From: Chlorobiota bacterium
GTDB taxonomy: Bacteria; Bacteroidota; Bacteroidia; Bacteroidales; F082
DNA length: 64,000 nt
Direction: 5' to 3'
Assembly (NCBI GenBank): GCA_013151215.1
Contig: JAADIS010000003.1
Coordinates: forward strand, 19,477-83,476
Shown: positions 31,513 through 54,298 of the stretch, in pieces
How positions within the stretch are numbered: position 1 is the stretch's first letter
Layout of the letters: the number at the start of each line of letters is the position of its first letter
Made by a program: the position numbers and the translations under genes
Notes under the pieces: generated by a model
What the model saw: only the letters and a program-made list of their open reading frames with translations
Told to the model about the DNA's origin: nothing
The model's database searches: none

Positions 31513-32910
31513 CTACAAATTTAATACTTTTTCGATTACGGAAATCAATTCTGTCTTTTTTATTGGCTTCGACAAATATTCGTCGAAACCTTCATTTAAG
31601 AGTTTTTCCTTTTCATTCGACATGGCATAGGCCGTTTGGGCTATAAAAGGCGTGCTTACCATTACGGGCCAGTCTTTTTTAATCCGGTGCATAAGCGTTA
31701 TTCCGTCAAATTCACCGGGCAGGTTAATATCCATTAGCACAAAATCAATTATAAATTGGTCGAGTGCCAGCTTGGTTAGCTCATCCAGGGTCTCTTCCCC
31801 GGAACCGCAGACGACAAGTTTATTACAACCAAATAACAATTTCGTAAATAATATTTGGTTGATCTTGTCATCTTCCACAAGCAAGATATTTTTGTTTTCC
31901 CATGGAGCCTTATCGCTTATTTGCTTTTTCCTGACCTTGGGCTCTTTTTGTGCCTGGGCTACTCTTGCAAGTTGCAAACTGATGAAAGCCTCTGTCCCGC
32001 TGCCTTTTTCAGATTCGATAACAATATTGCCGTTCATCAGATGGAGGGCTTTTTTCGCAAGTGGCAAACTTAAGCCTGCTCCTTGGTATTTCGTTGAATA
32101 CCCTAAGGTTTCCTGCCTGTAAGGCTCAAACACAAGCGGGATATAAGATGGGTCGATCCCGATGCCGGTATCTTTAATGCTGATGGTAACTATATCACCT
32201 TCGCTTCTTGCGCCAACTTTAATATACCCTTTGTCGGTAAACCTAACCGAATTGTCCAAAACCGAATCGATAATCCTCCTCAGGGCATCTCTGTCTGACA
32301 AACAATTGTGGTCCAGGTCTTTATCTACTATAATCTGTAAGCCTTTCTCGTCGGCTATTTTCCTGAAGTTTGCGATCGATTCGTTGAGTATCGATTTTAA
32401 ATCGCAAGCCACCAGGTCGAAACTAATATCGTTTACCTCTATTCTGCTTATATCGATAATATCGTTTAACAGCTTGAGCAAATTCTCCCCGCTTTCGGAG
32501 ATGCTGTTCCCATACTCATATAGATCGTCCCTGTTAAGGTGGGCCATCTCGGTTTTGAGCAGGTTGGCGAAACCCAAAATCCCGTTCAGCGGATTCCTTA
32601 TTTCGTTACTGACATTTGTCAAGAAAACATTTTTCATATAATTGGCCTTTTCTTCCTTTTCTATGGAGGCTTTCAAGGACTTGTTCCTGATCTTGATGTC
32701 TTGTATGTCAATCTTTAGTGCCTGTGATTCGGATCTGTAACGGGACTCGAAACTGTTATTGGGGTTATTAAGCTCGTTTAAGTTCAGCCTGATGTCATTT
32801 TGCTTGTCGCTTATGGTTTTGGCCCAAACCGATTTTTTTCTGTAAAAAATAAATGCCGTGCTTATGGATAGCAAAACAAGTGCGATACTTAAAACATAAA
32901 ATAAGCTCAT
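31513..32910 (-). CDS. Hybrid histidine-kinase-like protein with intact receiver but H-box His replaced by Asn
   Basis: TM; FLTNVSNEIRNPLNGILGFANLL (Asn where SHEIRTPL His is expected); DTGIGI, GAGLSLPLAKKAL; receiver LLVEDDKINQ, VLMDINLPGEFDG, SKPI. Confidence 0.88.
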   Translation of the reverse strand: MSLFYVLSIALVLLSISTAFIFYRKKSVWAKTISDKQNDIRLNLNELNNPNNSFESRYRSESQALKIDIQDIKIRNKSLKASIEKEEKANYMKNVFLTNVSNEIRNPLNGILGFANLLKTEMAHLNRDDLYEYGNSISESGENLLKLLNDIIDISRIEVNDISFDLVACDLKSILNESIANFRKIADEKGLQIIVDKDLDHNCLSDRDALRRIIDSVLDNSVRFTDKGYIKVGARSEGDIVTISIKDTGIGIDPSYIPLVFEPYRQETLGYSTKYQGAGLSLPLAKKALHLMNGNIVIESEKGSGTEAFISLQLARVAQAQKEPKVRKKQISDKAPWENKNILLVEDDKINQILFTKLLFGCNKLVVCGSGEETLDELTKLALDQFIIDFVLMDINLPGEFDGITLMHRIKKDWPVMVSTPFIAQTAYAMSNEKEKLLNEGFDEYLSKPIKKTELISVIEKVLNL

Positions 32911-33729: not shown

Positions 33730-35367
33730 TTATTGAATTATCAACTTATGGTTTACTGAATAAGTCCCGGTATTAACCGTTAAGATACATAATTGGGGGG
33801 ACAAGCCTTTTAAATCAATTTCTATTTTATTATTTATTCCACCCTGGCAGTAGGAATCAAGCTCAAATAATTGCTTACCGTCAATCGACCGAATCGTAAA
33901 AGTGCAAACCCCGCTTTTTAAAGGCCTAATGTTTATACTAGTATAATTTTTGGCGGGGTTCGGGAAAACCTGGCCAACAAAAGCACTCTCTTTCCCGGCT
34001 TCGCCGATGGCGTCGGGGCCCTGATATTCATAGGCGCCAACATCGTAAAAAGTATTATATGGACGGTTATGGTTCAGCAGATCGAATGTTACGCCCTCGC
34101 TACTGAGATTTTTCCCGAAGTCGATGGCGATAGAGCCGTTTTTGAGGCTATAATCGTCGGACGAGGGATTTGTAAACCCAATGTCCGAAATCGAGGGCGA
34201 AAAAATATTATTGCTCAGAGTTAAATTTGCCGAAGAGGTGAGGTTGTTGACATAAGCTGATTCCCCCTCGTCAATTTTACCCGGATCCGCTATTATATTA
34301 TTGATTATGACCCCTTGATTGGCAACGGGGTTGTTATAGGTAATCCCATAGGACTTAGGGCTGACGATAGTGTTATTATAGAATTTGAAGTCGAGATTTG
34401 CGAGAGTTACAACATCGCCTACATAAATACCGTGCTTGGCAGAATTTGGGTTGCCGGGCTCAAAGCTTCTGCCGGCCCTGACTATCAAGTTGTTGTAAAC
34501 CATAAACCCTCCAAGGCCGAGGACATCGATACCATCGCCCTTGCCGTCGTAGATTTCATTGTTATAGCAATCGCAGCGGGAGCCGCCACCGATTAATATC
34601 CCCGACATCTGATAAAGCGTTTCCTTGTCCGAGTCGTAGCGGATAATATTATTATAAATACTGCAGTCCTCGTCGGATGACGATACCTGTATGCCGTCCC
34701 AACCACAATGCTCCAGAATGTTGTTGTATATCTTTACGTCTTTAATCAGGTGCGGGAAAATAGTAGTGTCGCAGGCATCCAAATAAACACCTTGTTCATA
34801 TTTCGAATGACCGATATACATGCCCTCGTCGCCGATATCGTGAAAATAACAATCGTGGATATGCAGTGAATACATAGTGAAATTATCCCTGCTGGAAGCA
34901 AAAGTGCAATCCGGGTCGGTTTTGGCGTAAAGCCCTGCTATTAATGTATTGCTGATTTCGATGTTCGAAACTTCAATATTGGTGCTCAGTTCGTCAATCG
35001 ACATGCCCGAACCATTGGCGACCCTTTTTATTTTAAATCCGTAATCGATACCTTCATAACCATTGCCAAGAAATTTTATAAATGAACAATTCGCGATCTT
35101 AATACCGTAAAAGTTGTCGGTATCGAATAAAACCTGACCATTGCTGTTGATAAAAGTTATGGGCTGGTTCTCAGTACCGTGCACGTTCTTGATAAGCAAA
35201 TAATCCTTTTGCGACGATTCGATACAAACTGTGCTTCCGGCCGGTATGCTTGTTGTTTCGCCATCAATAATAAACTCGTTGGCTGCTATTGTCATGTCGC
35301 AATCTTGCGCCGATAAGCTAAAGGTTAGTAAAGAGCAGAATAAGACAATATTTATTAGTTTTATCAT
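33730..35367 (-). CDS. Secreted right-handed parallel beta-helix repeat protein with T9SS sorting domain
   Basis: Signal peptide; repeated IYNNI/IYNNIIRYDS/YNNTIVS helix rungs; C-terminus GQVFPNPAKNYTSINIRPL...NHKLIIQ; ATG at 35367 overlaps the stop of the upstream gene. Confidence 0.85.
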   Translation of the reverse strand: MIKLINIVLFCSLLTFSLSAQDCDMTIAANEFIIDGETTSIPAGSTVCIESSQKDYLLIKNVHGTENQPITFINSNGQVLFDTDNFYGIKIANCSFIKFLGNGYEGIDYGFKIKRVANGSGMSIDELSTNIEVSNIEISNTLIAGLYAKTDPDCTFASSRDNFTMYSLHIHDCYFHDIGDEGMYIGHSKYEQGVYLDACDTTIFPHLIKDVKIYNNILEHCGWDGIQVSSSDEDCSIYNNIIRYDSDKETLYQMSGILIGGGSRCDCYNNEIYDGKGDGIDVLGLGGFMVYNNLIVRAGRSFEPGNPNSAKHGIYVGDVVTLANLDFKFYNNTIVSPKSYGITYNNPVANQGVIINNIIADPGKIDEGESAYVNNLTSSANLTLSNNIFSPSISDIGFTNPSSDDYSLKNGSIAIDFGKNLSSEGVTFDLLNHNRPYNTFYDVGAYEYQGPDAIGEAGKESAFVGQVFPNPAKNYTSINIRPLKSGVCTFTIRSIDGKQLFELDSYCQGGINNKIEIDLKGLSPQLCILTVNTGTYSVNHKLIIQ

Positions 35368-36557
35368 GACCCTCGTTTTGCCCTTTCCCAATTTACGGAT
35401 TGCTGCCCTTTTAAAAACCGTTGAAACCCGAGGTAAACGGCATAGTTCATAACGAAAAAGTAGTACGGTACGAACAATATCTTTATGCTGATCTTTTTGT
35501 TTTCGAGAAACCAGCCCAACATTGCGAAAACGTAGAACAATACCTGGGCATAAAAAAGCAAGGTGTAAATATTTGAAAAAGAAGTTATTCCGGCATTTAA
35601 GGCCAGGAAAAAATTAAAGATAAATATAAAAGGCAATGCAAGAGGGGCAAGCGTCCAGCGCAAAACCCTGTGTGAAATGTATTGAAAGCTAAGGGTTTTA
35701 TATTTAAAGATATTAAGCAAAGGACTTAACCTAATTATTGATTGAATACCCCCGGCAGCAATCCTTATCTTACGTTTGAGTTCTTCCTGTACGTTAGCCG
35801 AAGAGCTTTCTATCGCATAGGCTTCAGGATCATATTGAATAGTGTAACCTTCCATGGCAACTCTTAATGAAATAATGAAGTCGTCGAGAAGTGTATCTTT
35901 TTCAACTTCGCGGAATAATTCTGTTCTAATTGCGAAAAGTTCCCCCGCTGCACCCACAACGGAATAAAGTTCGGCATCCCATTTTTTTAGTTTGGATTCA
36001 TATTTCCAATAAATCCCTTCACTACCCACGGCTGAGTCGGAATCCTTCTTGAAAATCCGTTTTTCGCCTGATACACAGCCTACTTTGGGGTCTTTGAACA
36101 TATTTACTATCCGTTGGATCGATTCTTCACCTAGCATGGTGTTTCCATCGGAGAATATCACAATGGGCGACTTGACAAATTTCATGCCCCTGTTCATGGC
36201 ACCTATTTTTCCGCCTCTGGCATCTTCATGATAAACTTCCACGCCCCGGTCTGAATATTTCTTCAAAATATCAGGCGTTCCGTCGTCCGATCCATCGGTT
36301 ACCCAAACTTGTCTTACTTTGTCCTTATTATATTTAAGACTGAACGAGTTTTCGACCTTGGCATCAACATAATCTTTTTCGTTATATGCTGCAACGAACA
36401 ATGTAACTTCTGGTTCATAGTCTTCATCGATATTCTTTTTTGAACTGCCGAATATCCTTTTAAGTTTAACCAAGAAAAACAATAGAATTCCATAACCCAA
36501 ATAGGCATAGAAAACAATGAAAAGCAAAAGCCAGAATATAAATTCCAATGTGTTCAT
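35364..36557 (-). CDS. Family 2 glycosyltransferase, membrane-associated
   Basis: EVTLFVAAYNEKDYVDAKVENSFSL...IFSDGNTMLGEESIQRI...C-terminal TM segments. Confidence 0.88.
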   Translation of the reverse strand: MNTLEFIFWLLLFIVFYAYLGYGILLFFLVKLKRIFGSSKKNIDEDYEPEVTLFVAAYNEKDYVDAKVENSFSLKYNKDKVRQVWVTDGSDDGTPDILKKYSDRGVEVYHEDARGGKIGAMNRGMKFVKSPIVIFSDGNTMLGEESIQRIVNMFKDPKVGCVSGEKRIFKKDSDSAVGSEGIYWKYESKLKKWDAELYSVVGAAGELFAIRTELFREVEKDTLLDDFIISLRVAMEGYTIQYDPEAYAIESSSANVQEELKRKIRIAAGGIQSIIRLSPLLNIFKYKTLSFQYISHRVLRWTLAPLALPFIFIFNFFLALNAGITSFSNIYTLLFYAQVLFYVFAMLGWFLENKKISIKILFVPYYFFVMNYAVYLGFQRFLKGQQSVNWERAKRGS

Positions 36558-40419: not shown

Positions 40420-41541
40420 TTATTTTTTAGTCATAACGAAAAGTGGGTATTGGCCATACTTTCCAGCTGTTTCGGGATGCTTGTCCTCCCAATTGTAGAT
40501 TGACTGCAGAATCTTTTTCCCGCCCAAAAACGGGTGGATATATATTTTGCTAAAAGGAACCGAAATGCTGCGCCAGACAAATATATCGAGATTGAAATCC
40601 CAATCGGTGTTTTTAAAATGCCCATAGGGAAAAGCGTGGAAATACAATACGGGATCTGCACTGCTGTCGGTTTTTACCGGTATAAGCCTGAGTTTTTTAA
40701 GTATCGACAAAAATATACGTCCAATTTTTTGGAAAGCCATCCAAACTTTTAAATAGATGAGAGCAATATTCATGAATAGAGAATATTTATCGCCCCAGGT
40801 ATAGACAATGGCCGCCGTCCGCCCAGGTTTTAAGGCGCGGTTTATTTCGTTCAGTGCTTTCGACTGCTCGTCCATGGGGATGTGGTAAATGGCGTTCAGT
40901 GCAATGGCGGCATCAAGTACGTTGTCTTTAAGCGGGAGGTTTGTTATATCGCCCATTATGCATATTCCCTTGTCGCCTAGCTTGCTTTTGGCTTGTTTAA
41001 GGCTTTCGATCGATAAATCCACGCAAATCCTGTAATCGTAGTCCTCGGAATAAACTAGGTAGCCGTCATACTGTATAGGACCGCTGCCCGCGTCCAAGAT
41101 AAATTTACCTTTGGGCTGAATATATCTTTTCACCCTGTTGTTGCAGCTAGTAAAATAATCCAAGGCCACCGGGCGGAGATCCTCGAAAATCTTGGCATCC
41201 GCAAAATGCTCGTCATCGATCTGTTTCCAGCCTATATTGTCGTAAAAGTTTTCGACGTCCCTCTTCTCGCTCCTCAGGTCTATATGTTCGGATTTGCGGG
41301 CAAGAATCATTGCCTTGTCTTTTCTTAATACAATAACATCTTGAATAATAGGATAGTAGCTGTCGGCCTCCTTTGAGAAAAGTGCCGATTTTATTTCTTC
41401 GAGCATTTTGTCGCCACCTGTAAACTCTAATTCCCCGTTTTCAACTTTTTTGTTAAGTAAATCAAGGTCGTGTTTATTTGCAAGTACCAAATCGCCTCCG
41501 CTTATGGGGCATTTTAATATCTTGATAATCTCTTCTTTCAT
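40420..41541 (-). CDS. SAM-dependent methyltransferase with Trm112-like N-terminal segment
   Basis: EIIKILKCPISGGDLVL; FILDAGSGPIQYDGYLVYS; ALNEINRALKPGRTAAIVYTWG; TAATG overlap with the upstream gene. Confidence 0.82.
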   Translation of the reverse strand: MKEEIIKILKCPISGGDLVLANKHDLDLLNKKVENGELEFTGGDKMLEEIKSALFSKEADSYYPIIQDVIVLRKDKAMILARKSEHIDLRSEKRDVENFYDNIGWKQIDDEHFADAKIFEDLRPVALDYFTSCNNRVKRYIQPKGKFILDAGSGPIQYDGYLVYSEDYDYRICVDLSIESLKQAKSKLGDKGICIMGDITNLPLKDNVLDAAIALNAIYHIPMDEQSKALNEINRALKPGRTAAIVYTWGDKYSLFMNIALIYLKVWMAFQKIGRIFLSILKKLRLIPVKTDSSADPVLYFHAFPYGHFKNTDWDFNLDIFVWRSISVPFSKIYIHPFLGGKKILQSIYNWEDKHPETAGKYGQYPLFVMTKK

Positions 41542-42746
41542 TATAACTTACTTTTTTTAGTTTTCTTTTGAAAAGCGTTGTATGAATGTTTTGTATGAAT
41601 AAATTCCTTATTGGCGCCTTTTATTTTCAGTAAAGATAACAACATATAATAAAAGCCTGACGGGATTTTCATCAATGCCTTAAGTGTTCTCATATTATAA
41701 AGATAGAGAGGTGTTGAAATGGCAAATGTCAGTATGCAAAGCAAGAACAGTATTCCCCATTCGACAAACAGCTCAAAGGGAGCAAAAGCAAGGTAAACCA
41801 CATTTATAAATATCAACAGGCCCAATAAAAGTATCCTGGGGATTAAGATAAACTGAACCGCCTTGTCGAACAGGTCGATATTGCCCTGGGCGAGAAGTGC
41901 TTTTGTAGCAGGGATAAAGCTTTTCCCGAAGAAATGCAGTTGTGCCGACAGCCACCTCCTGCGCTGGTCTGAGAACACCTTTGCATCAGGAACTTTCTCG
42001 TCATAAACATAAGCGTCGGGGAGATATTCGATCTTGATTTTTTTTGCAAGCGTCAATACTTCGATTTCCTTGTCGAAGCCCCCGACAACTTCAACTTTCT
42101 CCATCATCTCGCAAAAATATGAATATTCGAAAGCCATGGCTGAACCTATCAATGCCGATGAAAGACCTATCACGCGATGACCCTTCCTGAAGATATGGTT
42201 GTTGATTTCCTCACTGGCGGCATCGAGGATAGAGTAGGAAGTATCCATGTTCTTAGCAACCCGATGTGCTTGTACTACCGTATTGCCTGCCGAGAAGGCA
42301 GTGTTTACTTTTTCCAGGAAATCTTTTTCCATCAAATTGTCGGCATCGAGAACTATTGCCACGTCATAGTCTTTTTCCAGCGCGCGGAGGGCGGCGTTAA
42401 TTGCCCTCGACTTGGTGCTGAACTCCAATTCAACAACAATTAGCCTGATGTCCAGTACGTTAAGTCGGTCAAGGGTTGATTGCCTAAAACCGTCGGCTAC
42501 TATGATGACATCGAATAGCTCAGGGGGGTAATTTTGTTTCAAAGCCTCGTTAGCCACTTCTACCACAACGGTATCTTCTTTGTAGCCCGGTATTAATATG
42601 GCAAAGCGCCTCTGTTTGTCGTCCAAAGGTTTTTTTTGCTTGAAGCTGAACAGTCCGGCTATTGAGAAGAAAAAAATATAAATGGTCGAGAAGCCGACGA
42701 TCACAAAAAACAAATAGTTCAATATATACAGATAGTTCATAGTCAA
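41541..42746 (-). CDS. Membrane family 2 glycosyltransferase (duplicate module B, type 1)
   Basis: RRFAILIPGYKEDTVVVEVANEALKQNYPPELFDVIIVADGF; VAIVLDADNLMEKDFL; QRRRWLSAQ. Confidence 0.9.
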   Translation of the reverse strand: MTMNYLYILNYLFFVIVGFSTIYIFFFSIAGLFSFKQKKPLDDKQRRFAILIPGYKEDTVVVEVANEALKQNYPPELFDVIIVADGFRQSTLDRLNVLDIRLIVVELEFSTKSRAINAALRALEKDYDVAIVLDADNLMEKDFLEKVNTAFSAGNTVVQAHRVAKNMDTSYSILDAASEEINNHIFRKGHRVIGLSSALIGSAMAFEYSYFCEMMEKVEVVGGFDKEIEVLTLAKKIKIEYLPDAYVYDEKVPDAKVFSDQRRRWLSAQLHFFGKSFIPATKALLAQGNIDLFDKAVQFILIPRILLLGLLIFINVVYLAFAPFELFVEWGILFLLCILTFAISTPLYLYNMRTLKALMKIPSGFYYMLLSLLKIKGANKEFIHTKHSYNAFQKKTKKSKL

Positions 42747-42752
42747 ATCTTT

Positions 42753-43679
42753 TTACAACATCGGGTTTTCGTGGATCTCCTTCGAGAAAATATTCCTTAT
42801 GTTCCAGCCAATGGCCCGGTAATAGGCAAAAAACAACTTATACTTGCCTTTCAACAGGAATTTAAAGGCGTTTTTCGGGATGGCAACGAACAGTTGATAA
42901 AACAAGCCCAAATAAAACTCGCGCCCTTCGATGTTACGACGCATAAAAACGATGCGGTTTCTATTTTGATAATATATTTTCAAGGCACTCAGCCGCCCTG
43001 TAGAAACTGATTCCTTGTGATATACGAATGTGCTGCCTATAAAATAGTTTTTATAACCGGCCTTCTTAATCCTGGCACACCAATCAGCCTCTTCGTAATA
43101 CAGGAAAAATATATACGACATCAGGCCTATTTTCTTAATGACCCTCATGGGGACTATCATTGCCGCCCCGTGAGCATAGGCAGTTTCCTTGTCCTCTTTA
43201 TATTGGCCCTTGTCCTTTTCCCAGTAACCTATCGAGGCATTGCGCATCGTTATAGGGTTTATGGGAGTGTAACCTGCATATTGTATGGTGTCGGGCTGAT
43301 AATAAAATTTAATCAAGGGGCTTGCTGCCCCGATATGATGGTTCTTCTCAAGCTTGTTTACCAAAGGTTCCAAAAAACCCGCAGGAACCTCCACATCGTT
43401 GTTCAATAACATAACGTATTCGCCCCTGGCACGCATCAGCCCGAAATTGTTGCCGGCCGCAAAGCCGTAGTTTATCGGGTTTTCAATGTATATTATATTC
43501 GGGTATTTTTCTTTTATTATGGATGGGTCGTCTTCTGTGGAATGATTATCGATTATTATTACCTCTATATTGGGGTAGGTGATCTTGTTCAATGATTCGA
43601 GCAAGGCACAAGTAACATCAGCCTGATTGTAATTAACCGATACAATGGATACTAATGGATATTTATTCCTGACAGGCAC
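42753..43679 (-). CDS. Family 2 glycosyltransferase, rhamnosyltransferase-like (duplicate module B, type 2)
   Basis: VSIVSVNYNQADVTCALLESLNKITYPNIEVIIIDNHSTEDD...EYVMLLNNDVEVPAGFLEPLV. Confidence 0.9.
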   Translation of the reverse strand: MPVRNKYPLVSIVSVNYNQADVTCALLESLNKITYPNIEVIIIDNHSTEDDPSIIKEKYPNIIYIENPINYGFAAGNNFGLMRARGEYVMLLNNDVEVPAGFLEPLVNKLEKNHHIGAASPLIKFYYQPDTIQYAGYTPINPITMRNASIGYWEKDKGQYKEDKETAYAHGAAMIVPMRVIKKIGLMSYIFFLYYEEADWCARIKKAGYKNYFIGSTFVYHKESVSTGRLSALKIYYQNRNRIVFMRRNIEGREFYLGLFYQLFVAIPKNAFKFLLKGKYKLFFAYYRAIGWNIRNIFSKEIHENPML

Positions 43680-43697
43680 GTTTTTCCCCTTCCTTAA

Positions 43698-44921
43698 TTA
43701 ATTGTGCTTTGTTTCCTCCACATGATCGTGGGTAGTATGCAGAAACTTTTTGCTAGCACCTTTTATTTTAAACAGGCTTATAAGCATCAACAAGAAGCCA
43801 TGTGGTATTTTAAGCAAAGCGAGAAATGTTTTAAAATTATAAAAACTAACAGGGATTGAAATAACCAAGCCAATGGCAGTCAATGCGAATATGTATAGCC
43901 ATATAGTGTAAGATGTTATAAATAAACTACTTATAAAGTCAATTGATAGAAATGAAAATAATGCGGACACAATTACGCTTATGAACAGCACACCGGCAAG
44001 AATAATACGGGGCGGCATTATCATTTGTATGACTTTATCGAAATAATCGACATTGGCTTTGGTGAGAAGCTGACCCAGGCCGTCGAGGAAATGACTACGG
44101 AAATAATCGAGCTGTGCAGCGATCCACCTTCTGCGCTGATTAACGAAGACATCTGATTTAGAAGTCTTCTCGTCATAAATAAGGGCATCGTGTATATATT
44201 CGATCTTGTGCTTGTCGCGAATTATTTTTAGCTCGACCTCCTTGTCCTCGCCTACCGAATCGACAGTTGCCATGGTGGATTTGAACAAACGGTACTCCAG
44301 GGCCATGCCGGAACCTATAAGTGCCGACGAAAGACCAAGCACGCGGTGTCCTTTCCTGAAGATATGATTATTGATCTCTTCGCTCAAGGCATCGAGGATG
44401 GCAAAGTTGGCGTTCAGGTTCTTGGCGGTGCGATGCCCTTGGACGGCAGTAAAGCCTCTTTCAAAAGCCATGTTCATTTTTGCTAGGACGCCAGGCCCCA
44501 TAACATTATCGGCATCCAAGATCATTGCCACGTCATAATCGTCGCCTATGCGCTCCATGCACAAATTAAGAGCCTTCGACTTTTTGCTTACCTCAAACTC
44601 GACCACTTCAACCCTAATGGGAAGTTTTCTTAATTTTTCCAAGGTTGAACCGGAGAACGAGTCGGCAATTACGATAACATCATATTTTTCATCAGGATAA
44701 TCTTGTTTTGTTGCTTGTTCGGCAACGCTGACTATAACAGCATCTTCTTTATAACCAGGAATCAAAACGGCAAATCTCCTATGCTCGGAAACGGAAACTG
44801 TTTTTCGGTTTTTATAAAACAAGCCTGCAAGGGCGAATATAAAAACATAAAGTGAAGCCAGGCCCAAATAAACGTAAAATACTATTTCGATGCTGTTAAT
44901 CAGTAATTTAAGTACGCCCAT
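43698..44921 (-). CDS. Membrane family 2 glycosyltransferase (duplicate module A, type 1)
   Basis: RRFAVLIPGYKEDAVIVSVAEQATKQDYPDEKYDVIVIADSF; paralogous to 41541..42746. Confidence 0.9.
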   Translation of the reverse strand: MGVLKLLINSIEIVFYVYLGLASLYVFIFALAGLFYKNRKTVSVSEHRRFAVLIPGYKEDAVIVSVAEQATKQDYPDEKYDVIVIADSFSGSTLEKLRKLPIRVEVVEFEVSKKSKALNLCMERIGDDYDVAMILDADNVMGPGVLAKMNMAFERGFTAVQGHRTAKNLNANFAILDALSEEINNHIFRKGHRVLGLSSALIGSGMALEYRLFKSTMATVDSVGEDKEVELKIIRDKHKIEYIHDALIYDEKTSKSDVFVNQRRRWIAAQLDYFRSHFLDGLGQLLTKANVDYFDKVIQMIMPPRIILAGVLFISVIVSALFSFLSIDFISSLFITSYTIWLYIFALTAIGLVISIPVSFYNFKTFLALLKIPHGFLLMLISLFKIKGASKKFLHTTHDHVEETKHN

Positions 44922-44922
44922 G

Positions 44923-45858
44923 TCAATTTCTTTTTAATTTTGGTATTCCAAAAACTATATCTTTACGGTGGGTGATGTTCCACCATACAGCTTTCCAGTA
45001 AGCAGCAAACAAGTCGAAGCGTTTACGCATGATGAACCCCAAACTAATCCGCGGCCCTGAAATAAAGTATAAATATAATAAAGTTATCAATCTTTTAAGT
45101 CCTTTTGTATTTCTTCTTGCAAACAATATTCTCCCCCTGTTGATATAATAAATCTGAAAAGGGCTGTCTTTAACGGTGGAAATGGATTCTTTGTGCAAAA
45201 CAAGCGATTTGCCCTGGTAATATATCTTATAGCCGGCCTTTTCAATGTGTGCGGCCCAGTCATGTTCTTCGTAGTACAGGAAGAATACTTCCGTCATCAT
45301 GCCAACTTTCTCGATTACGTCCATAGATACCAACATGGCGGCGCCGAATATAGAGCCGGTTTGGCAGCAGATATCATATTGCCCTTTGTCGATCTCGCCG
45401 AAACCAATGGCAAAGTTTCTGATGGTTACCATGTTAAATTTTGTAAAGCCCGCAAACTGCAGGGTGTTTTTGGTATGGAAGTATTGTATTTTAGGGCTAA
45501 CCATCGCAATGCTTGTGTCGTTTTCCAGCACATCCACGAGAGGTTCCAGAAATCCAGGGTCAACTTCTGTGTCATTATTGATAAAAAGGACGTGTTTTCC
45601 CTTGCAGTATGGCAGGGCGAGGTTATTGCCGCCAGCGAAACCAAGGTTCTTGTCGCTTTTTATTAATCTGATATATGGGAAGTCAAGCTTAAGCCTGTCC
45701 GAATCATCGATGGGGGAAGCATTGTCCACAACGAAGACCTCCGTCCTGGGATATGAGATTTTTTCCATTGAACGGAGAAATTCTGCCGTTACCTCAGTTT
45801 GATTATAATTTACAGTTACTACCGAAACTAAAGGTAATCGTATGGCTTTTTTCTCCAT
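44923..45858 (-). CDS. Family 2 glycosyltransferase, rhamnosyltransferase-like (duplicate module A, type 2)
   Basis: VSVVTVNYNQTEVTAEFLRSMEKISYPRTEVFVVDNASPIDD...VLFINNDTEVDPGFLEPLV; paralogous to 42753..43679. Confidence 0.9.
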   Translation of the reverse strand: MEKKAIRLPLVSVVTVNYNQTEVTAEFLRSMEKISYPRTEVFVVDNASPIDDSDRLKLDFPYIRLIKSDKNLGFAGGNNLALPYCKGKHVLFINNDTEVDPGFLEPLVDVLENDTSIAMVSPKIQYFHTKNTLQFAGFTKFNMVTIRNFAIGFGEIDKGQYDICCQTGSIFGAAMLVSMDVIEKVGMMTEVFFLYYEEHDWAAHIEKAGYKIYYQGKSLVLHKESISTVKDSPFQIYYINRGRILFARRNTKGLKRLITLLYLYFISGPRISLGFIMRKRFDLFAAYWKAVWWNITHRKDIVFGIPKLKRN

Positions 45859-45868
45859 GATATAAGAT

Positions 45869-47362
45869 TTATGTTTTTGTAAATACTGATGTTGGTGTTA
45901 TGCCCTTACTTTTTAAATAGTCCCATTCCCTGTCGAACTGCTGGGACATGAAAACAAATGCCCAGCTCAGGTAGATAAGCGGGCCGGTTGGGATCTGGCC
46001 CAGTACGCCATTGCCGTAGCTGGCGCCGACTATACCCGCAAACCCGGCATGGACCGCCCCTAGAATACCTGCCAGCTCAGGGTTTCTTACCTTGAACAGT
46101 ATGAGGTAAAAGCCTTTTATCATTATGTACGACAGTATAAATACATGGATAAACAGCCCGACGATCCCTGTTTCGGCCCATATTTGAACATACCAGCTAT
46201 CGGTTGCTATTTGAGCAAGGTAGCCTTGTGGCGAAAAACGCTGGCCCCAGTTACCCGCACTGCCGACACCTCCTCCGAAAGGCTTATCCGACAAATATTC
46301 TTTTAGTATGGCCCTGTTTTCCAAACGGACCTGATAAGACGCATCCTCCGTGGGCCTGAAGGCGGTGCGCATCCTGGCAATTTGATAGTTGCTGTCGCCA
46401 ATATAAGTATAGGCAAAGAAAAGATAGACTGCGGTCATCATGAGCCCACCTATTATAATAACCCTAAGGTTTTTACGCAGAATAATATATACTACTCCTC
46501 CTATCATGGGCACTATCATCGCACCCCTGGTTCCTGAGAGAAACATTCCCCAAAGTCCTAGAAACCCCATTGTCAGAAAGAAGATCCTATTCCTCATCCC
46601 TTTTATGGTTGACGCCACCAACAGACCCACTACGCCTGCCGCAGCCTGTGCCGCACCAAATTGCCCGGCGTCGGAAAAGAATGAGAAGATACGTAATTTG
46701 CCGAGTATTATGTGTGTTACCGCCCCAACGGTGTCAAGCCAATATTGTTCGGCGGAATCCAAGCCTATGTATTCTTGTTTTAAGCCAACCAAGGTTGCGA
46801 GTATGGTAAACACCCCCCATAAATACAGGAAGCCCATCATATACCTTATTCTGTTAAAGGTAAATAGGGCAATAGGAATTAGTAGCATCGAATATAGCGC
46901 GACGCCCCTCATGGCATAAAACCATGCGGTGCGGCTAAGAGCCTGTGGGTTGCCCAACTGCATTAAAATATATAAAAACCAAAAAAACAAAAGATATACT
47001 ATATCCCTGTTAATTTGCTGGAAATCAATTCGCACATGGAAATATTTAAAGAAAAACCCAAGAATTGTCACTACCATAAACCCATCGATACTAAGCCCCA
47101 GGGGCACTCCTTGAATATAACGGGTAAGGCCAATGGCTAAAAATGCAAATATCAATAAGGTATATATTCCTATCGGCGGATTGTTGAACACCCTGTTCAG
47201 GAAGAATAAAACAGGTAACATCGCCACAAGCATTACTGCGGTTTTAACACCTCCTTTTGCCATTATTACACCGGCAATTACGGCAATCATCACCAATATG
47301 GCAATAACCAAAGGATGTTCAAGTTTTCGCGCGCCGCGCTTTTGCTTTAATGATTCCAACAT
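45869..47362 (-). CDS. O-antigen ligase/polymerase-like multi-TM protein (Wzy/WaaL type)
   Basis: Many TM helices; FLSGTRGAMIVPMIGGVVYIIL and large periplasmic loop with NWGQRFSPQGYLAQIATDSWYVQIWAETGIVGL. Confidence 0.8.
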   Translation of the reverse strand: MLESLKQKRGARKLEHPLVIAILVMIAVIAGVIMAKGGVKTAVMLVAMLPVLFFLNRVFNNPPIGIYTLLIFAFLAIGLTRYIQGVPLGLSIDGFMVVTILGFFFKYFHVRIDFQQINRDIVYLLFFWFLYILMQLGNPQALSRTAWFYAMRGVALYSMLLIPIALFTFNRIRYMMGFLYLWGVFTILATLVGLKQEYIGLDSAEQYWLDTVGAVTHIILGKLRIFSFFSDAGQFGAAQAAAGVVGLLVASTIKGMRNRIFFLTMGFLGLWGMFLSGTRGAMIVPMIGGVVYIILRKNLRVIIIGGLMMTAVYLFFAYTYIGDSNYQIARMRTAFRPTEDASYQVRLENRAILKEYLSDKPFGGGVGSAGNWGQRFSPQGYLAQIATDSWYVQIWAETGIVGLFIHVFILSYIMIKGFYLILFKVRNPELAGILGAVHAGFAGIVGASYGNGVLGQIPTGPLIYLSWAFVFMSQQFDREWDYLKSKGITPTSVFTKT

Positions 47363-47404: not shown

Positions 47405-48838
47405 TTATTTTTTTAATAACGACTTCCTGATAAAAACACTGAAAAATGAGATACCGCCTGAAAATATATTCCTGAACCGCAAATCCAATTCTTTATCTAA
47501 ATAACTGAAACCCACAAATATACCTATCATTGAGAACAGTAATGTGACCACGGCCACTAATTCGAGAACGGTCAGTTTGGTAAAACCCGACAGTACGCTT
47601 ATAAAGGTGTCGATACTTTCGACCTGGGTGAATAAAAGCGTAAAACCGGTAATGAACAATACAAAATAATATATTCCGAACACCATTATCCCATCACCTA
47701 TGATATTGGCAAGTGTCATATAAACTACCTTGATGAAATTTTGCTTGGGCATATTTACGCTGTCCAGGGCAACTCCCGTAAGCCTATCGATTGGAAGCAA
47801 AAGACCATAGAAGCAAAAGATCCTGAAAATAGTCGCGGTTTGCGCATAATTGCTTCCTCCCAAGACGGTAACAAATTCCTCGGCGAAAATAAAACAGAAT
47901 AGCATCACGGGAATGAGCATATAAAGAAGTCCTCCGGCATTTTGATAGTATAAGCGCTTTACCTCTTCTTTGTTTCCTTCGATACTTGCCTTCGACATGC
48001 CGGGGAAGGCAGTCATAGCATAGCTTCTCACGGGAATCTCAATTATCTCGGTAAGCTTTAGCGGTATGCTGTATAAAGCAACTGCCGTGGTTCCTAAAAA
48101 TGGGCTCAAGCCGATGATAAAAGTATCGGCGCTTTTAAGCAAGTTGCTTCCTATCAAGGTGCCGGTCGTATATTTCCCGAAATCCAATATCACCTTTATC
48201 TTAGCCTTGTTAGTGTGAAATATATAACGGATCCCGTCCCAGTTGAACAGCATTGTCAACAATGACGTAAGCAAGGTTGTGGAAAGGTAAACTATCATTA
48301 TTTCCAACAACCCATAATTCAGGAAGAAATAGTTGACAACCAAGAACAACATAAATATCCCTACGTTGACTATTCTGACCAAAAGGATAAGGTCGAAGCG
48401 CAAACGAGCCTGCAATACCGATAGTGAATTGTTGAACGGCAGGCTTAAGACGGCATAAATCGGAAACCATTGGAAAAACAGCGAGAAACCCGAGCTGGAA
48501 ACCGTGTCGCGGAAATAATAATTTATCAGTAAAGTAATTACGATTAGGGAAATTGATGAAATAATATTTATAGTGTAGTTGGAGCCTATAAGCTGCCTGG
48601 CCTCATTTTTTCTTGCCCCCGACAAAAACCTGACCATTGCTGTTCTGGTAATGCCGAACCTGAGCATATCCAGAAAGTTTGCCGTTGTCAGGAACAAGAC
48701 CCATTTGCCGAAATCATCGGTAGGAAGGCTGCGAACCAATACCATAAAGCTGAAAAATGCCAAAACGGCGACCAATCCATTATTTGCTAAAGAAAGGAAG
48801 TTGTTGTTCTTTAGTATTTTAGTTAACAGATTTCCCAA
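47405..48838 (-). CDS. Polysaccharide flippase (Wzx/MATE-like)
   Basis: FLSLANNGLVAVLAFFSFMVLVRSLPTDDFGKWVLFLTTANFLDMLRFGITRTAMVRFLSG; about 12 TM segments. Confidence 0.85.
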   Translation of the reverse strand: MGNLLTKILKNNNFLSLANNGLVAVLAFFSFMVLVRSLPTDDFGKWVLFLTTANFLDMLRFGITRTAMVRFLSGARKNEARQLIGSNYTINIISSISLIVITLLINYYFRDTVSSSGFSLFFQWFPIYAVLSLPFNNSLSVLQARLRFDLILLVRIVNVGIFMLFLVVNYFFLNYGLLEIMIVYLSTTLLTSLLTMLFNWDGIRYIFHTNKAKIKVILDFGKYTTGTLIGSNLLKSADTFIIGLSPFLGTTAVALYSIPLKLTEIIEIPVRSYAMTAFPGMSKASIEGNKEEVKRLYYQNAGGLLYMLIPVMLFCFIFAEEFVTVLGGSNYAQTATIFRIFCFYGLLLPIDRLTGVALDSVNMPKQNFIKVVYMTLANIIGDGIMVFGIYYFVLFITGFTLLFTQVESIDTFISVLSGFTKLTVLELVAVVTLLFSMIGIFVGFSYLDKELDLRFRNIFSGGISFFSVFIRKSLLKK

Positions 48839-48841
48839 CGC

Positions 48842-51781
48842 TTATTCCTCCTTTCTGATATTAATCTTGTATTTTAAAGGATAGGAGAGTACATTTTTAA
48901 TCTTTTTTATCAATGCTTGTCTCTTGCTCTTAGGTAAGGATGTCAGTAATTCCTCAAGGTTATAAAGTTCAACTTCGTTGAGGATTACCATAGGATCAAT
49001 ATTAATGGAACCCTTAAATATATCAAGAGCGTTTTTATCGGCTTTTTGCAAGCTGCTGTTTGCTGATACTACCAGTAAAACACTATCTGCCAAATTGATG
49101 AGCTTTATCGGGTAATTATTGTAAACTATTGAAGGCAACTCGATAAACATATAATCATATTCATAGTTTTCCTTCCTGATATTTTTTGCGTTCAACAAAT
49201 CGGGTATCGAATCCAAGTCGATGAAATCGTTACCAATCTTATAGGTGAACGAATAATTATAATCTTCTTCAAACTCGTTTTCGTTATCCTTGCTATAGTT
49301 GGCGTATAGTATTGTATGTCCCATGTCGCGCAGTCGGTTAACGATTTTCTGGCCCAATAAAGTCTTGCCCATTTTGTCCTGGGTGGAAACCATAAGGACA
49401 ATTTTCGGTTTTTTATCCTCATCCTGGGATCTTGCAAGCTTGACTTTGATATTTTGGATGATCATGTCAACCAACCTTCCGGTAATACGGGCTAATTCCC
49501 TGGCCTGGGCTGCCGAGCCGATTCGCGGGTAGGCACCTGCAAGCTCCAGTTTGGTTTCGTATTTAACCCTGTTTGGGCTCTTGACTGAAGAGTCGAAGTA
49601 TTCAAGGATAAGTATTACGAATGCCACCATGATAAGGCCGAACATAAATGCTGCCGCAATAAGTATTTTTGTTTTTGACGCTTTTGGCGAAATAGGGAAG
49701 AAGGCAGGGTCAACAACCTTTATGTTGGTTGACATATCAAGTCGCTGCTGCTTCATCTTCGCAGCGTTCAGGCTTCGTAAAAGCTCGAGGTAGGATTGTT
49801 CGGCAACCTTTATTTCGCGCTCTATTCGTTTAAGCATAGCACCGAGCGGCGCAAACTTTTGGTATGTCCTCACAAAATCCATCTTGCGCCTTGCCAAAAC
49901 AATAAGTGCGGCTTTTGCCTCCTCATAGCTTAGGGTGTTCGTCAACCAGCTTTCCAGCAATGTTTTTATCGGCATCCCCTGGGTTGAATGGCTATAAAGG
50001 AAAAGTTGGTCCACATACAGCTTTATATGGTCCTGTAAGTCTTTTTGCCTCAGGCGAAGCATGTTTAGCTTGTTCTTCGTCCTTTCGTCATAACTTTCCG
50101 ATAACTCGTTAAGCACTATTGCCTCAGTAATATCCGAGAGTTCTTTTTTCATTTGGTTTATCTCGTCGCTTTTCAGGTAAATACTGTCCCTGGCCGTTAA
50201 GTTAGTCTCAAGTTCCCTGAGCGACGAAGCCGACGAAGCCATCCTTACCTGTTCGTTTTGATAATATAGGTCGAGGTCTTCTTTCTGGCTTGCTATATAT
50301 TTACTCTGCTCATAGTAGTTGATGATATTGTTCTTCATATTGAACTTCAACAAGCGGTCTTCCGCTTCCTGGAGCTTTTTGTCTGCCAGGGCAACCTGTT
50401 CCTCAAAATAGTTAATAACAAGGTTTGTCTCGTTTTCGCGGAGCATCTTATAATTTTTCATAAAAACCTTTGATAAAATCTTAAGTGTCTGCTGGCATAT
50501 CCCGGGATCATCGGCTGAATAGATGATCTTTACCATATCGCTGTTCTTCTCCCTAAAGACCTGAAGTTGAGAGATTTTGGCAATACTATAATGGGGGTGC
50601 TGGCCATAATGCAATAGTCCGTAGATAAAGTTGCTGTCGTTGGCGCTATAGAAGGCCATCAAATTATTAAAAGTTTTCTGGAAGTCCTCCGGATTAATTC
50701 CTGATGGAGTTATGGGGTCTTTTTTTGATGCATCGGTACTACTGCTGATAGTAGTACTTATCTTAGTTGTAATGCCATCATAATTATCGTTGTTTGAGGA
50801 AACCGGGCTCGATTGAACAACAATCCCGGGTGAGACCTGTTTTACGGCATAGTCATAAGAAGAGCCCTGGTTTGACAAAGAATTATAACCTTGTTCGATT
50901 ATTATTTTCTGTCCGGGACTTAATGCCCTGTTATTCAAGTTATTGTTTTCGCGAAGCTTGCTTATGTTGATACCGTAGCGCTTAGCAATCGAATAGAGGG
51001 TCTCGCCACGCTTTACCGTATGGTATTTGGAAGTCATGCCCGAGGGAGTGCTTTTTTTGATAATAATTGATTGTCCTCCGGATAAATCGCCGGTGGTAAG
51101 GTTGTTCAGGTCCATCAGCTGCCCTCTGGATACTCCGTACCTACTGGCAATTTCCGATAATGATTCGCCTTGCTGGACCTCATGGAAAACATAATTGTTG
51201 TTATCGACAGCTGCCCTGTCCTTCCCGACGCCGGCAGAAGACCTGAATGCGGGGTCAACATATCCGTCTTGACGAATTTTGTTCTGGGCGGCTTTATTCT
51301 TCTTTTTGGTAATTTCTCTTTCAAGGGAGGTGATTTCTTTTTCGAGGTTTTTGATCTGTTCCTCCTTCTCGCGCTCTATTCCCGATTTATTGTATTTTAC
51401 AACTAAGTCCTTAACCCTTTTTGGTATAAACTCCTGGAGTTTCTTATAATGTTCTTTCGAGATGTACTGATTATTGTAGCTTTCGAGGGAAAGATCTTGT
51501 GCCAATAGCCAAAGTGAGGTGGAGACAATGGTTTGGCGCGAGCTTAACATAGCAATTATATTGTCGAACTGAGCGCTGGTTGTAAAAAAGTTTGAGCTTT
51601 GCTGCGTATTGGACTCAATGGAATAACCTGTTGTAATACCCGTATAGATCAACACTTCCGATTCATACTCCAAAGTTTGGTTCCTGGTTAAGAAATAGAC
51701 CACAAAGGCCAAGATTAGCGGAATGGCTATTAGTATTACCAAGTTACGTTTAAAAAGCTTTAAAAACTGACCAATATCCAT
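48842..51781 (-). CDS. Wzc/Wzz-type polysaccharide co-polymerase with two periplasmic LysM domains and degenerate C-terminal BY-kinase-like domain
   Basis: Two flanking TM helices; LysM FHEVQQGESLSEIASRYGVSRGQLMDLNNLTTGDLSGGQSIIIKK and YHTVKRGETLYSIAKRYGINISKLRENNNLNNRALSPGQKIIIEQ; C-terminal VLMVSTQDKMGKTLLGQKIV. Confidence 0.88.
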   Translation of the reverse strand: MDIGQFLKLFKRNLVILIAIPLILAFVVYFLTRNQTLEYESEVLIYTGITTGYSIESNTQQSSNFFTTSAQFDNIIAMLSSRQTIVSTSLWLLAQDLSLESYNNQYISKEHYKKLQEFIPKRVKDLVVKYNKSGIEREKEEQIKNLEKEITSLEREITKKKNKAAQNKIRQDGYVDPAFRSSAGVGKDRAAVDNNNYVFHEVQQGESLSEIASRYGVSRGQLMDLNNLTTGDLSGGQSIIIKKSTPSGMTSKYHTVKRGETLYSIAKRYGINISKLRENNNLNNRALSPGQKIIIEQGYNSLSNQGSSYDYAVKQVSPGIVVQSSPVSSNNDNYDGITTKISTTISSSTDASKKDPITPSGINPEDFQKTFNNLMAFYSANDSNFIYGLLHYGQHPHYSIAKISQLQVFREKNSDMVKIIYSADDPGICQQTLKILSKVFMKNYKMLRENETNLVINYFEEQVALADKKLQEAEDRLLKFNMKNNIINYYEQSKYIASQKEDLDLYYQNEQVRMASSASSLRELETNLTARDSIYLKSDEINQMKKELSDITEAIVLNELSESYDERTKNKLNMLRLRQKDLQDHIKLYVDQLFLYSHSTQGMPIKTLLESWLTNTLSYEEAKAALIVLARRKMDFVRTYQKFAPLGAMLKRIEREIKVAEQSYLELLRSLNAAKMKQQRLDMSTNIKVVDPAFFPISPKASKTKILIAAAFMFGLIMVAFVILILEYFDSSVKSPNRVKYETKLELAGAYPRIGSAAQARELARITGRLVDMIIQNIKVKLARSQDEDKKPKIVLMVSTQDKMGKTLLGQKIVNRLRDMGHTILYANYSKDNENEFEEDYNYSFTYKIGNDFIDLDSIPDLLNAKNIRKENYEYDYMFIELPSIVYNNYPIKLINLADSVLLVVSANSSLQKADKNALDIFKGSINIDPMVILNEVELYNLEELLTSLPKSKRQALIKKIKNVLSYPLKYKINIRKEE

Positions 51782-51788
51782 GTTAAAA

Positions 51789-52586
51789 TTATCTAATTAT
51801 AGTTATTAAGTTAAAGTGCATACCTGTAATAACCTCAAGAGCATCGTAATTTTTCTGAAATTCGGTAATAACTTTAATATAGTCGATTGCACCCCTGGTC
51901 TGAATCTCTTTGAGCCTGGCATATTCAGCAGTTGTTATCTCACCGTTCAAGAATTCATTTTGGGCCATTTGCATCTGTGTCAATGTAAAGGCCTGATAAT
52001 CATTATATATTTTAATCTGGCTCTGAAAGTTGACCAGGTCGTTATAAATGTTGATGACCCTGTCGGCCAGAAACCTCCTGTTAATTTCTTTTTGCGTTAA
52101 GGATAGCTCTATCCATTTTTTTTGCTTGTTGATCCTGTTTCTTCTGTCGATAAGGGTGACCAATGGCATGCGGATATAAAACCCCACTGCGTAATTTCCT
52201 CTCCACGATTGCGAATTGTAGAATTTGTTGGGGTTGTTCGGGTCGCTGATCTGAAGCTCCTGCCAGTCCCAATAATCCCATTTCCCGAAGTTGAGGTCAA
52301 CGCTCCAACGAAGCATGTCGAGCCATTCCCGCGCTGCCGACAGTTGTTCGTACCTGTAATAGTCAGCTTTCAGGTCTTCATAAAGCATATCGGGAGAATT
52401 GAACGCGGCAGAGTCGATAAGCACGCTCAAGGCAGGTAGCCTTTCGGTTATGTCATCAGTTAATGGGTTGAACTCCTGCTCTTTACCCTTGTTTGAATTC
52501 TGCGCAGACACATTTAGGCTAAAAATTGTGAGCAATAGGAACAACCACAAATCATTAAATATATTTCCCGATGTTGATTTTATCAT
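51789..52586 (-). CDS. Short TolC-like outer-membrane protein
   Basis: Signal peptide; GNYAVGFYIRMPLVTLIDRRNRINKQKKWIELSLTQKEI...RVINIYNDLVNFQSQIKIYNDYQAFTLTQMQMAQNEFLNGEITTAEYARLKEI. Confidence 0.65.
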   Translation of the reverse strand: MIKSTSGNIFNDLWLFLLLTIFSLNVSAQNSNKGKEQEFNPLTDDITERLPALSVLIDSAAFNSPDMLYEDLKADYYRYEQLSAAREWLDMLRWSVDLNFGKWDYWDWQELQISDPNNPNKFYNSQSWRGNYAVGFYIRMPLVTLIDRRNRINKQKKWIELSLTQKEINRRFLADRVINIYNDLVNFQSQIKIYNDYQAFTLTQMQMAQNEFLNGEITTAEYARLKEIQTRGAIDYIKVITEFQKNYDALEVITGMHFNLITIIR

Positions 52587-52692: not shown

Positions 52693-53919
52693 TCAAACAT
52701 TATCCTTCTGCAGCAATGCAGGAATCGTCCTTAAAATAAGTTTTATGTCCCCCCAAAATGAATAATTGTTAGCATACTGATTATCAAGCATTTTGCGCTC
52801 TTCTTCGCTCATCACGCCCTTTTTCCCCCTTAATTCCACCTGCCACAGACCTGTTATTCCGGCGGGTCCCATGAACCGCAGGCTCCAATCGTCGGATGTT
52901 AATAACTCTGCCTCGTACAAAGGCAGGGGGCGGTTGCCCACAATTGACATATCCCCTTTTAGAACGTTAAATAGCTGGGGTAGTTCGTCAATACTGGTGT
53001 TCCTGATAAAATTACCAACTTTGGTGATCCTGGGGTCATTGGATATTTTTATGAACGTGGAGTCTGTTAGTTCCTTTTTTTGTTTTATATACCAGTTCTC
53101 ACATATCTTGTGACCTTTGATATACAGGATAGGGGAACAATGCTCGCCTTCGGGAAGTTTTGCGCATTCGGGGCAGTTGAAATCCAGTTCGTAGTCCTTC
53201 TCGGCTTTTTTTTCTTTTCCCCCGTTCTTGCCGTCGGAGTATTGATTCAAATGTTTTAGCTCGGCAAGCTTGGCATCGGCGCCGGTGTACATTGACCTGA
53301 ATTTCAGGAAATCGAATATTTTATATCCCGTGCCGACCCTTTTGCTCTTATAAACTATGGGGCCTTTCGACTCAAGCCGTATGGCAAGGGAAACTATAAG
53401 AAGTATGGGTGAGATCATGAGGAGCACGCTGGCAGATACCAGTATGTCGAAGCCTCTTTTCATCAATGGTATCTTATACTCGTATTTTTTCTTCTTTTTG
53501 ACTTTTTGGTCAAGTATTTCGGAATAGTACTGTTGAAGCGACCTAATGCGGTTATAGATATCTATCGGTTTTACCGGATAAAAATAAAGATCGTCGATTA
53601 TGCCCTTTGCTGCAAAGGATTTTTTTAATAAATCGTCGTCTTTTTCAAACGCGAGCAGAATAATCGGCGTTTTCAATAACCTTTTGTTCCCTCTTAAAAT
53701 CCCTGCATACTCTATACCGTTCATTCCGTACATGAAAGCCTCGCAAACGATAGCATCTATGTCCTCGTCCGATTTAATATAACTATTGGCCTTTAGTCCA
53801 TTATCGAACTGTGTAAGCGCAAATAACTCAGTGTTCGCCCTTAAGTCCGCAATAAAGTTTTCGTTGCTTCCAACATAAAGAACTTGCAATGGTGAGCGAG
53901 TGGGATTTTCCATAATCAA
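52693..53919 (-). CDS. Initiating sugar transferase (polyprenyl-P glycosylphosphotransferase, WcaJ/PglC-like) fused to an N-terminal pseudo-receiver
   Basis: Receiver-like fold AIVCEAFMYGMNGIEYAGILRG ... FYPVKPIDIYNRI; PGT core MKRGFDILVSASVLLMISPILLIVSLAIRLESKGPIVYKSKRVG, FLKFRSMYTGAD, DPRITKVGNFIRNTSIDELPQLFNVLKGDMSIVGNRP. Confidence 0.93.
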   Translation of the reverse strand: MIMENPTRSPLQVLYVGSNENFIADLRANTELFALTQFDNGLKANSYIKSDEDIDAIVCEAFMYGMNGIEYAGILRGNKRLLKTPIILLAFEKDDDLLKKSFAAKGIIDDLYFYPVKPIDIYNRIRSLQQYYSEILDQKVKKKKKYEYKIPLMKRGFDILVSASVLLMISPILLIVSLAIRLESKGPIVYKSKRVGTGYKIFDFLKFRSMYTGADAKLAELKHLNQYSDGKNGGKEKKAEKDYELDFNCPECAKLPEGEHCSPILYIKGHKICENWYIKQKKELTDSTFIKISNDPRITKVGNFIRNTSIDELPQLFNVLKGDMSIVGNRPLPLYEAELLTSDDWSLRFMGPAGITGLWQVELRGKKGVMSEEERKMLDNQYANNYSFWGDIKLILRTIPALLQKDNV

Positions 53920-53932
53920 AAAATTTCGGAAA

Positions 53933-54298
53933 CTAGATTAGTAGGTTTTCAATCCTAATCGCCAATTCTTCCGGGTTAAAGGGTTTGACTATATAATCGT
54001 TTGCGCCCAGCTTTAGGCATTTAACCCTTTCAACACTACTTTCAATGCCCGAAAGCATTATTATGGGTATGTGTTTGAAGAAACCGCTCTCTTTTATTTT
54101 TTGCAATAATTCGTATCCGTCCATGTTCGGCATTTGTATATCAGCAACAATTAGGTCGGGCATATTACCTTCCTCTAGCGATTTCAATGCTTCGATACCG
54201 TCGTTGGAGGTGGTGACATTATAGCTTTTTCCCAAAAAATTCTCGAGTAACATTCTGATACTTAATTCATCGTCTATAATGAGTATTGTTTTCTTCAT
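53933..54298 (-). CDS. Stand-alone CheY-like receiver
   Basis: MKKTILIIDDELSIRMLLENFLG, LIVADIQMPNMDGYELLQKI, IIMLSGIES, YIVKPFNPEEL. Confidence 0.93.
   Translation of the reverse strand: MKKTILIIDDELSIRMLLENFLGKSYNVTTSNDGIEALKSLEEGNMPDLIVADIQMPNMDGYELLQKIKESGFFKHIPIIMLSGIESSVERVKCLKLGANDYIVKPFNPEELAIRIENLLI

Follow-up and report, generated by a model that had tools for sequence, protein, structure and literature searches.

There is, to our knowledge, little explanation of how polysaccharide machines get through the peptidoglycan and locate their outer-membrane partner. In polysaccharide co-polymerases (PCPs) of the Wzc type, the segment preceding the second membrane helix is known as GNVR. 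FimV and HubP, which are not PCPs, possess a large acidic cytoplasmic domain with TPR and serve pili as well as polar organisation. FimV resides in the inner membrane and binds peptidoglycan with its periplasmic LysM, and it helps the outer-membrane secretin PilQ to assemble and to localise; once this LysM is deleted, the pilus machine loses its position, and secretin multimers are fewer in a fimV mutant (PMC5285504). LysM in general recognises GlcNAc-X-GlcNAc, and the AtlA LysM module was shown to bind peptidoglycan, with peptide stems lowering its binding (PMC4083421). EcpK/EpsV of Myxococcus xanthus is a PCP-2 system with a BY pseudokinase in place of an active kinase (PMC12004946). In the same organism, an initiating transferase is activated by a single-domain response regulator (PMC12802240).

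Within the window, i.e., the whole 64,000-nucleotide stretch of DNA analysed here, the open reading frame 48842-51781 on the minus strand encodes, from an ATG start, a protein of 979 aa. Translation, Pfam, structural model and fold match identify it as a Wzc-fold polysaccharide co-polymerase with two intact LysM modules between its membrane helices. Pfam detected LysM over two stretches (E 8e-28) and GNVR over residues 650-725 (E 6.2e-7); NCBIfam matches to polysaccharide chain-length and exopolysaccharide-transport families were found under the cut-offs of these families. By hydropathy, membrane-helix regions occur solely at both ends of the periplasmic part, with TM1 at residues 10-31 (51689..51754; helix 14-32 in the model) and TM2 at residues 704-728 (49598..49672; hydropathy and model). 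Two membrane helices flanking one periplasmic domain, the arrangement of the PCP-2/Wzc family, were thus seen by hydropathy and model, together with a Wzc fold and the GNVR segment before TM2. Because no membrane helix was found between residues 40 and 690, and given the topology of the PCP family, the LysM region is predicted to be periplasmic, as the first-pass annotation had proposed. A cytoplasmic topology, against which that annotation had asked for its proposal to be checked, was ruled out by hydropathy, the extra membrane helix being absent. All sequences it had quoted for two membrane helices and two LysM stretches are present in the translation, and its assignment of the protein to the Wzc/Wzz type is supported by GNVR and the Wzc fold match.

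The AlphaFold model (mean pLDDT 77.8, pTM 0.44, 52 sequences) arranges the chain in the order TM1, base, stalk helix, disordered stretch, LysM1, LysM2, disordered linker, long periplasmic helices, TM2, and cytoplasmic alpha/beta domain. The stalk helix, delineated by model, alignments and sequence, covers residues 134-170 (51272..51382) and displays coiled-coil-like I/L spacing. Both LysM modules, LysM1 at residues 200-242 (51056..51184; Pfam and HMM scan) and LysM2 at residues 254-296 (50894..51022; Pfam), are folded, their blocks reaching pLDDT values of ~83-87, and are bordered by the disordered linkers 170-195 and 299-352. The latter belongs to a long, fast-evolving linker of residues 297-361 (50699..50893; pLDDT about 33, identity 0.24). 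It is followed by the periplasmic PCP core of long helices, which includes most of GNVR (residues 362-700, 49682..50698; Pfam, model and fold match). The modules combine the LysM sequence profile with the beta-alpha-alpha-beta fold, as determined by Pfam, model and structure match; Foldseek relates the insert to crystal structures with two LysM (4uz2), and LysM2 was aligned over its full length to the AtlA LysM module 2mkx (E 1.7e-7). On the level of the whole protein, VIA-align superimposed residues 1-949 of the model on Wzc (7nib) with Z 18.4 over 414 residues and an rmsd of 5.3, and its C-terminal part on BY-kinase domains with Z about 17. A chance or frame artefact behind the reading frame was ruled out by the profile scores and the many homologues.

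The cytoplasmic domain (48917..49591) was assigned to the BY-kinase fold by fold match, and motif counts reveal its degeneration. Glycine and lysine of Walker A are invariant in all alignment rows. At the Walker A' aspartate position, 48 of 52 rows have Asn; Glu replaces the aspartate of Walker B in 50 of 52, and the C-terminus of the window PCP lacks a tyrosine-rich tail; the combination defining active BY-kinases (Walker A, A' DxD, B D, Tyr cluster) was not found. By analogy with EcpK, we infer that the domain is a pseudokinase and that its activity has probably been lost. The same genome encodes a second PCP (G000:C10, L142:1405-4687) of 825 aa, whose tail GYGYGYGYGYYTDD is rich in GY repeats and for which no LysM match was reported. 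Its gene adjoins that of a Poly_export protein, the only Wza detected in the genome, and constitutes with it a separate, canonical Wza-Wzc pair.

The gene order response regulator, initiating phosphoglycosyl transferase, half-size TolC-like protein, PCP, Wzx, Wzy is conserved. All on the minus strand, the operon begins with a single-domain response regulator whose phospho-site is intact, the phospho-site residues being conserved (53933..54298), and continues with the phosphoglycosyl transferase (52693..53919; family matches and alignment). Downstream of the PCP lie a Wzx-type flippase (47405..48838; Pfam Polysacc_synt_3), a Wzy-type polymerase of the polymerase/O-antigen ligase family (45869..47362; Pfam Wzy_C), and glycosyltransferases plus a methyltransferase of the same cluster (40420..45858; Pfam). 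The transferase carries an N-terminal receiver-like domain, with Glu at the phospho-site position in 59 of 73 sequences, and a four-Cys insertion present in 71 of 72 homologues. Together with the response regulator, it resembles the EpsW-EpsZ control in Myxococcus. Two further genes were observed in the window: one within the glycosyltransferase cluster (33730-35391) encodes a right-handed beta-helix protein that carries a C-terminal sorting domain for type IX secretion and might, once secreted, modify or bind a polymer, and one at the far end of the cluster (31513-32910) encodes a hybrid histidine kinase with a receiver domain, a possible partner of the response regulator.

Directly upstream of the PCP gene, a single-repeat, half-size TolC-like outer membrane protein of 265 aa is encoded (51789..52586, minus strand; Pfam OEP, E 2.3e-10). 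Its model (pLDDT 87) consists of one TolC repeat in the order helix, beta-hairpin, 72-residue helix, helix, and its leading solved-structure matches are channels of the TolC family, such as TolC and OprM. The OEP repeat, with its beta-hairpin and its long helices in the periplasm, is present once; the relatives mostly measure 220-320 aa, against about 420-480 aa for the two-repeat form, which is not seen here. To build the same barrel as TolC, such a chain would need six subunits, double the number in TolC; a different number might instead suit the PCP ring. The half-size gene stands beside the PCP gene throughout the loci, LysM-less ones included. In a phylum sample of 395 genomes, strong matches to the half-size protein (E below 1e-20) and to the PCP (E below 1e-100) fell into the identical 21 genomes, a co-occurrence whose significance is inflated by kinship among the genomes; there, the genes are direct neighbours with few exceptions and are never more than 15 kb apart. 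Judging from this gene order and co-occurrence, the PCP and the half-TolC protein may be in contact. No match to OPX/Wza was detected in the window or in the flanks of 80 loci, and a PCP-2a with an OPX in the same cluster is hence not what the window system presents. OPX occurs in 37 of 40 genomes with the operon, on other contigs or >100 kb away, with one at about 15 kb; a Wza hidden in the cluster was rejected on these grounds. Of the Wzc-like machine that the first-pass annotation had described, the Wzc fold has held; the kinase domain, however, is apparently inactive, and a half-TolC protein, not Wza, is the likely partner at the outer membrane. The pairing of this protein with a PCP in an OPX-free operon is arguably more novel than the LysM insert.

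The LysM cassette, comprising stalk helix, linker, one or two LysM and long linker, separates two helices in the N-terminal region of the PCP, close to the membrane: the insert follows the helix ending ...PKRVKDLVVK and precedes the one starting ...EDFQKTFNNL. LysM-less relatives show nothing or a short linker at this site, and the stalk helix 134-170 is missing in those aligned. Across alignment rows, identity amounts to 0.53-0.55 for the LysM modules, 0.59 for the PCP core and 0.18-0.26 for the linkers, both modules being conserved nearly like the core, above the kinase-like domain and far above the linkers. With dN/dS values versus the nearest relative of 0.04 for LysM2 and 0.08 for LysM1, compared with 0.13-0.40 for the linkers, the modules are, judged from substitution patterns, under purifying selection while the linkers scramble. 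A full-length homologue, defined as a best match with E below 1e-200, exists in 24 of the 37 sampled genomes of the window's family; two genomes from the same order but different families (G049 and G056) have one too. The nearest 80 loci of a GTDB scan belong nearly all to Bacteroidales or unplaced Bacteroidota MAGs; their full-length homologues all carry one or two LysM at the same site, except L105 and L109, a LysM-bearing fraction biased upwards since the list holds nearest relatives. A 395-genome phylum draw contained PCP-core matches (E below 1e-15) in 85 genomes, and among 30 loci read from it LysM was found in the window's own PCP only. The LysM modules persist in PCPs of many genera and of several families. 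The Bacteroidales operon also turned up at L102 and L097, on contigs that bear the labels Alphaproteobacteria and Paraglaciecola arctica; the L102 PCP is nearly identical to the Bacteroidales L101 protein, making mis-binning likely.

Phylogenetic analysis showed the LysM label to be clustered on a tree of 109 proteins, an inheritance with at least one loss. In a 24-protein tree, one clade of all LysM-bearing proteins was rejected (AU p 1.6e-7), which excludes a single LysM-bearing clade and points to gain plus loss, with the number of gains unfixed. LysM-less proteins of about 791 aa from family f31 (L113-L116, four genomes) group with LysM-bearing Bacteroidales at a support of 100/100 and retain a linker remnant at the insertion site, and their lineage keeps the whole operon. 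Among the neighbouring genes read at LysM-less loci, no LysM protein was found, and a shift of the LysM to another gene was discarded as an explanation. The simplest reading of these patterns would be an old gain of LysM, with losses afterwards and recurrent switches from one module to two or back, the deep order being unsure owing to long branches. The 791-aa versions represent natural deletion controls.

Anchorage to the cell wall, one of two functions the first-pass annotation had suggested for the modules, is the best-supported reading, drawing on the LysM2-AtlA alignment, the conservation of the modules and the FimV precedent. In the mechanism we propose, the PCP serves a Wzx/Wzy-type exopolysaccharide system as its co-polymerase in the inner membrane, and its LysM modules would bind the glycan strands of peptidoglycan. 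By way of the flexible linkers, these modules may fasten the PCP ring to the wall around the point at which its periplasmic helices contact the tunnel that the half-TolC protein forms in the periplasm, and this wall contact would stabilise or position the trans-envelope conduit. The Wzy-made polymer, formed beside the PCP, could then exit via the half-TolC channel. To the explanation as a whole, an exopolysaccharide PCP of a Wzx/Wzy system tethered by LysM to peptidoglycan and meeting a half-TolC conduit, we assign an even chance. Because some lineages have lost LysM, the cassette would be an accessory for assembly or positioning, inessential to the chemistry; its dispensability in the f31 lineage with the entire operon speaks against the tether being essential. 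The other suggested function leads to a different ligand and to the main alternative, namely binding of the nascent GlcNAc-containing exopolysaccharide, whose length LysM might measure as a ruler or which it might hold on its surface close to the polymerase. LysM does bind GlcNAc-X-GlcNAc in several polymers (PMC4083421), its copy number differs between one and two by lineage as that of a length-control part might, and the cassette sits close to the membrane. The glycosyltransferase sets, however, vary between loci while LysM stays, so that peptidoglycan, being invariant, is mildly favoured over a fixed polymer ligand, and the closest modules are those of the cell-wall binders LytE, P60 and AtlA, although these are also the commonest solved ones. 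We regard the polymer as a rather unlikely ligand.

Binding to the wall could also serve localisation and not mechanical support, if LysM recruited the export machine to a division site or pole with stem-poor glycan strands. No sequence feature separates this role from anchoring, and a polar or division partner was not seen in the operon; with the delocalised pilus machine after FimV LysM deletion (PMC5285504) and the lowered AtlA LysM binding in the presence of stems (PMC4083421), by which LysM may favour stem-poor wall, on its side, recruitment still appears rather improbable to us. That the insert is a neutral, tolerated passenger domain would agree with the loss of LysM in some lineages keeping the operon and with the fast evolution of the surrounding linkers. 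Set against retention across many genera and several families, conservation close to that of the PCP core and above that of the kinase-like domain, and dN/dS of 0.04-0.08, we consider a passenger very improbable. Returning to the wall-anchored PCP, a broader proposal may be formulated, which we put slightly below an even chance: an OPX-free class of Bacteroidota Wzx/Wzy machines, in which a half-size, single-repeat TolC-like protein replaces OPX (Wza) and the PCP bears a pseudokinase, and in whose Bacteroidales branch LysM pins the PCP to peptidoglycan, uniting inner membrane, wall and outer membrane in one conduit.

A search of open-access papers, which reaches a minority of subscription papers and is thus weak evidence for novelty, yielded no description of a LysM-bearing PCP or of a PCP with a half-TolC partner. 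A PCP with built-in LysM modules makes the wall's role testable via a defined cassette, with LysM-less relatives as natural controls. If confirmed, the half-TolC partner would open a second export route, unrelated to the first, for polymers made by Wzy, and it would extend the roles of the TolC family to polysaccharides. Shared by a large group of Bacteroidales that are uncultured, the LysM-PCP and its half-TolC neighbour hint at a machine for sugar polymers that is fastened to the cell wall.

Compared with known systems, the half-size protein resembles TolC and OprM in its TolC repeat, beta-hairpin and long helix, but is half their length with a single repeat and linked to PCP and Wzx/Wzy genes instead of an efflux pump. 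PslE, a PCP of Pseudomonas aeruginosa (9v6l), matches the window PCP with the C-terminal half of the profile (E 1.3e-9), leaving out the LysM region. With FimV and HubP, the window PCP shares the placement of a periplasmic LysM in an inner-membrane protein, which in FimV binds peptidoglycan and aids assembly of an outer-membrane channel (PMC5285504); it differs in its BY-kinase-fold cytoplasmic part, without a TPR match. In EcpK/EpsV, the pseudokinase is a separate protein, whereas here it is fused to the PCP, and LysM is not mentioned in the available part of that source (PMC12004946). Like the canonical Wza-Wzc pair of its own genome, the window PCP gene adjoins a gene for a putative outer-membrane partner; unlike the 825-aa PCP of that pair, with its GY-rich tail and adjacent Poly_export protein, it carries LysM. 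To E. coli Wzc (PCP-2a), it corresponds in its two membrane helices, periplasmic base and long helices, GNVR and C-terminal BY-kinase fold, and it departs from Wzc and the Wza-Wzc complex by the LysM cassette, degenerate kinase motifs, missing Tyr tail and a half-TolC neighbour in place of Wza. Since the features of an active PCP-2a kinase and of a Wza-partnered system were tested and not found, it is filed as neither, being instead a protein of the PCP-2 fold that combines a predicted pseudokinase with a putative wall-binding cassette.
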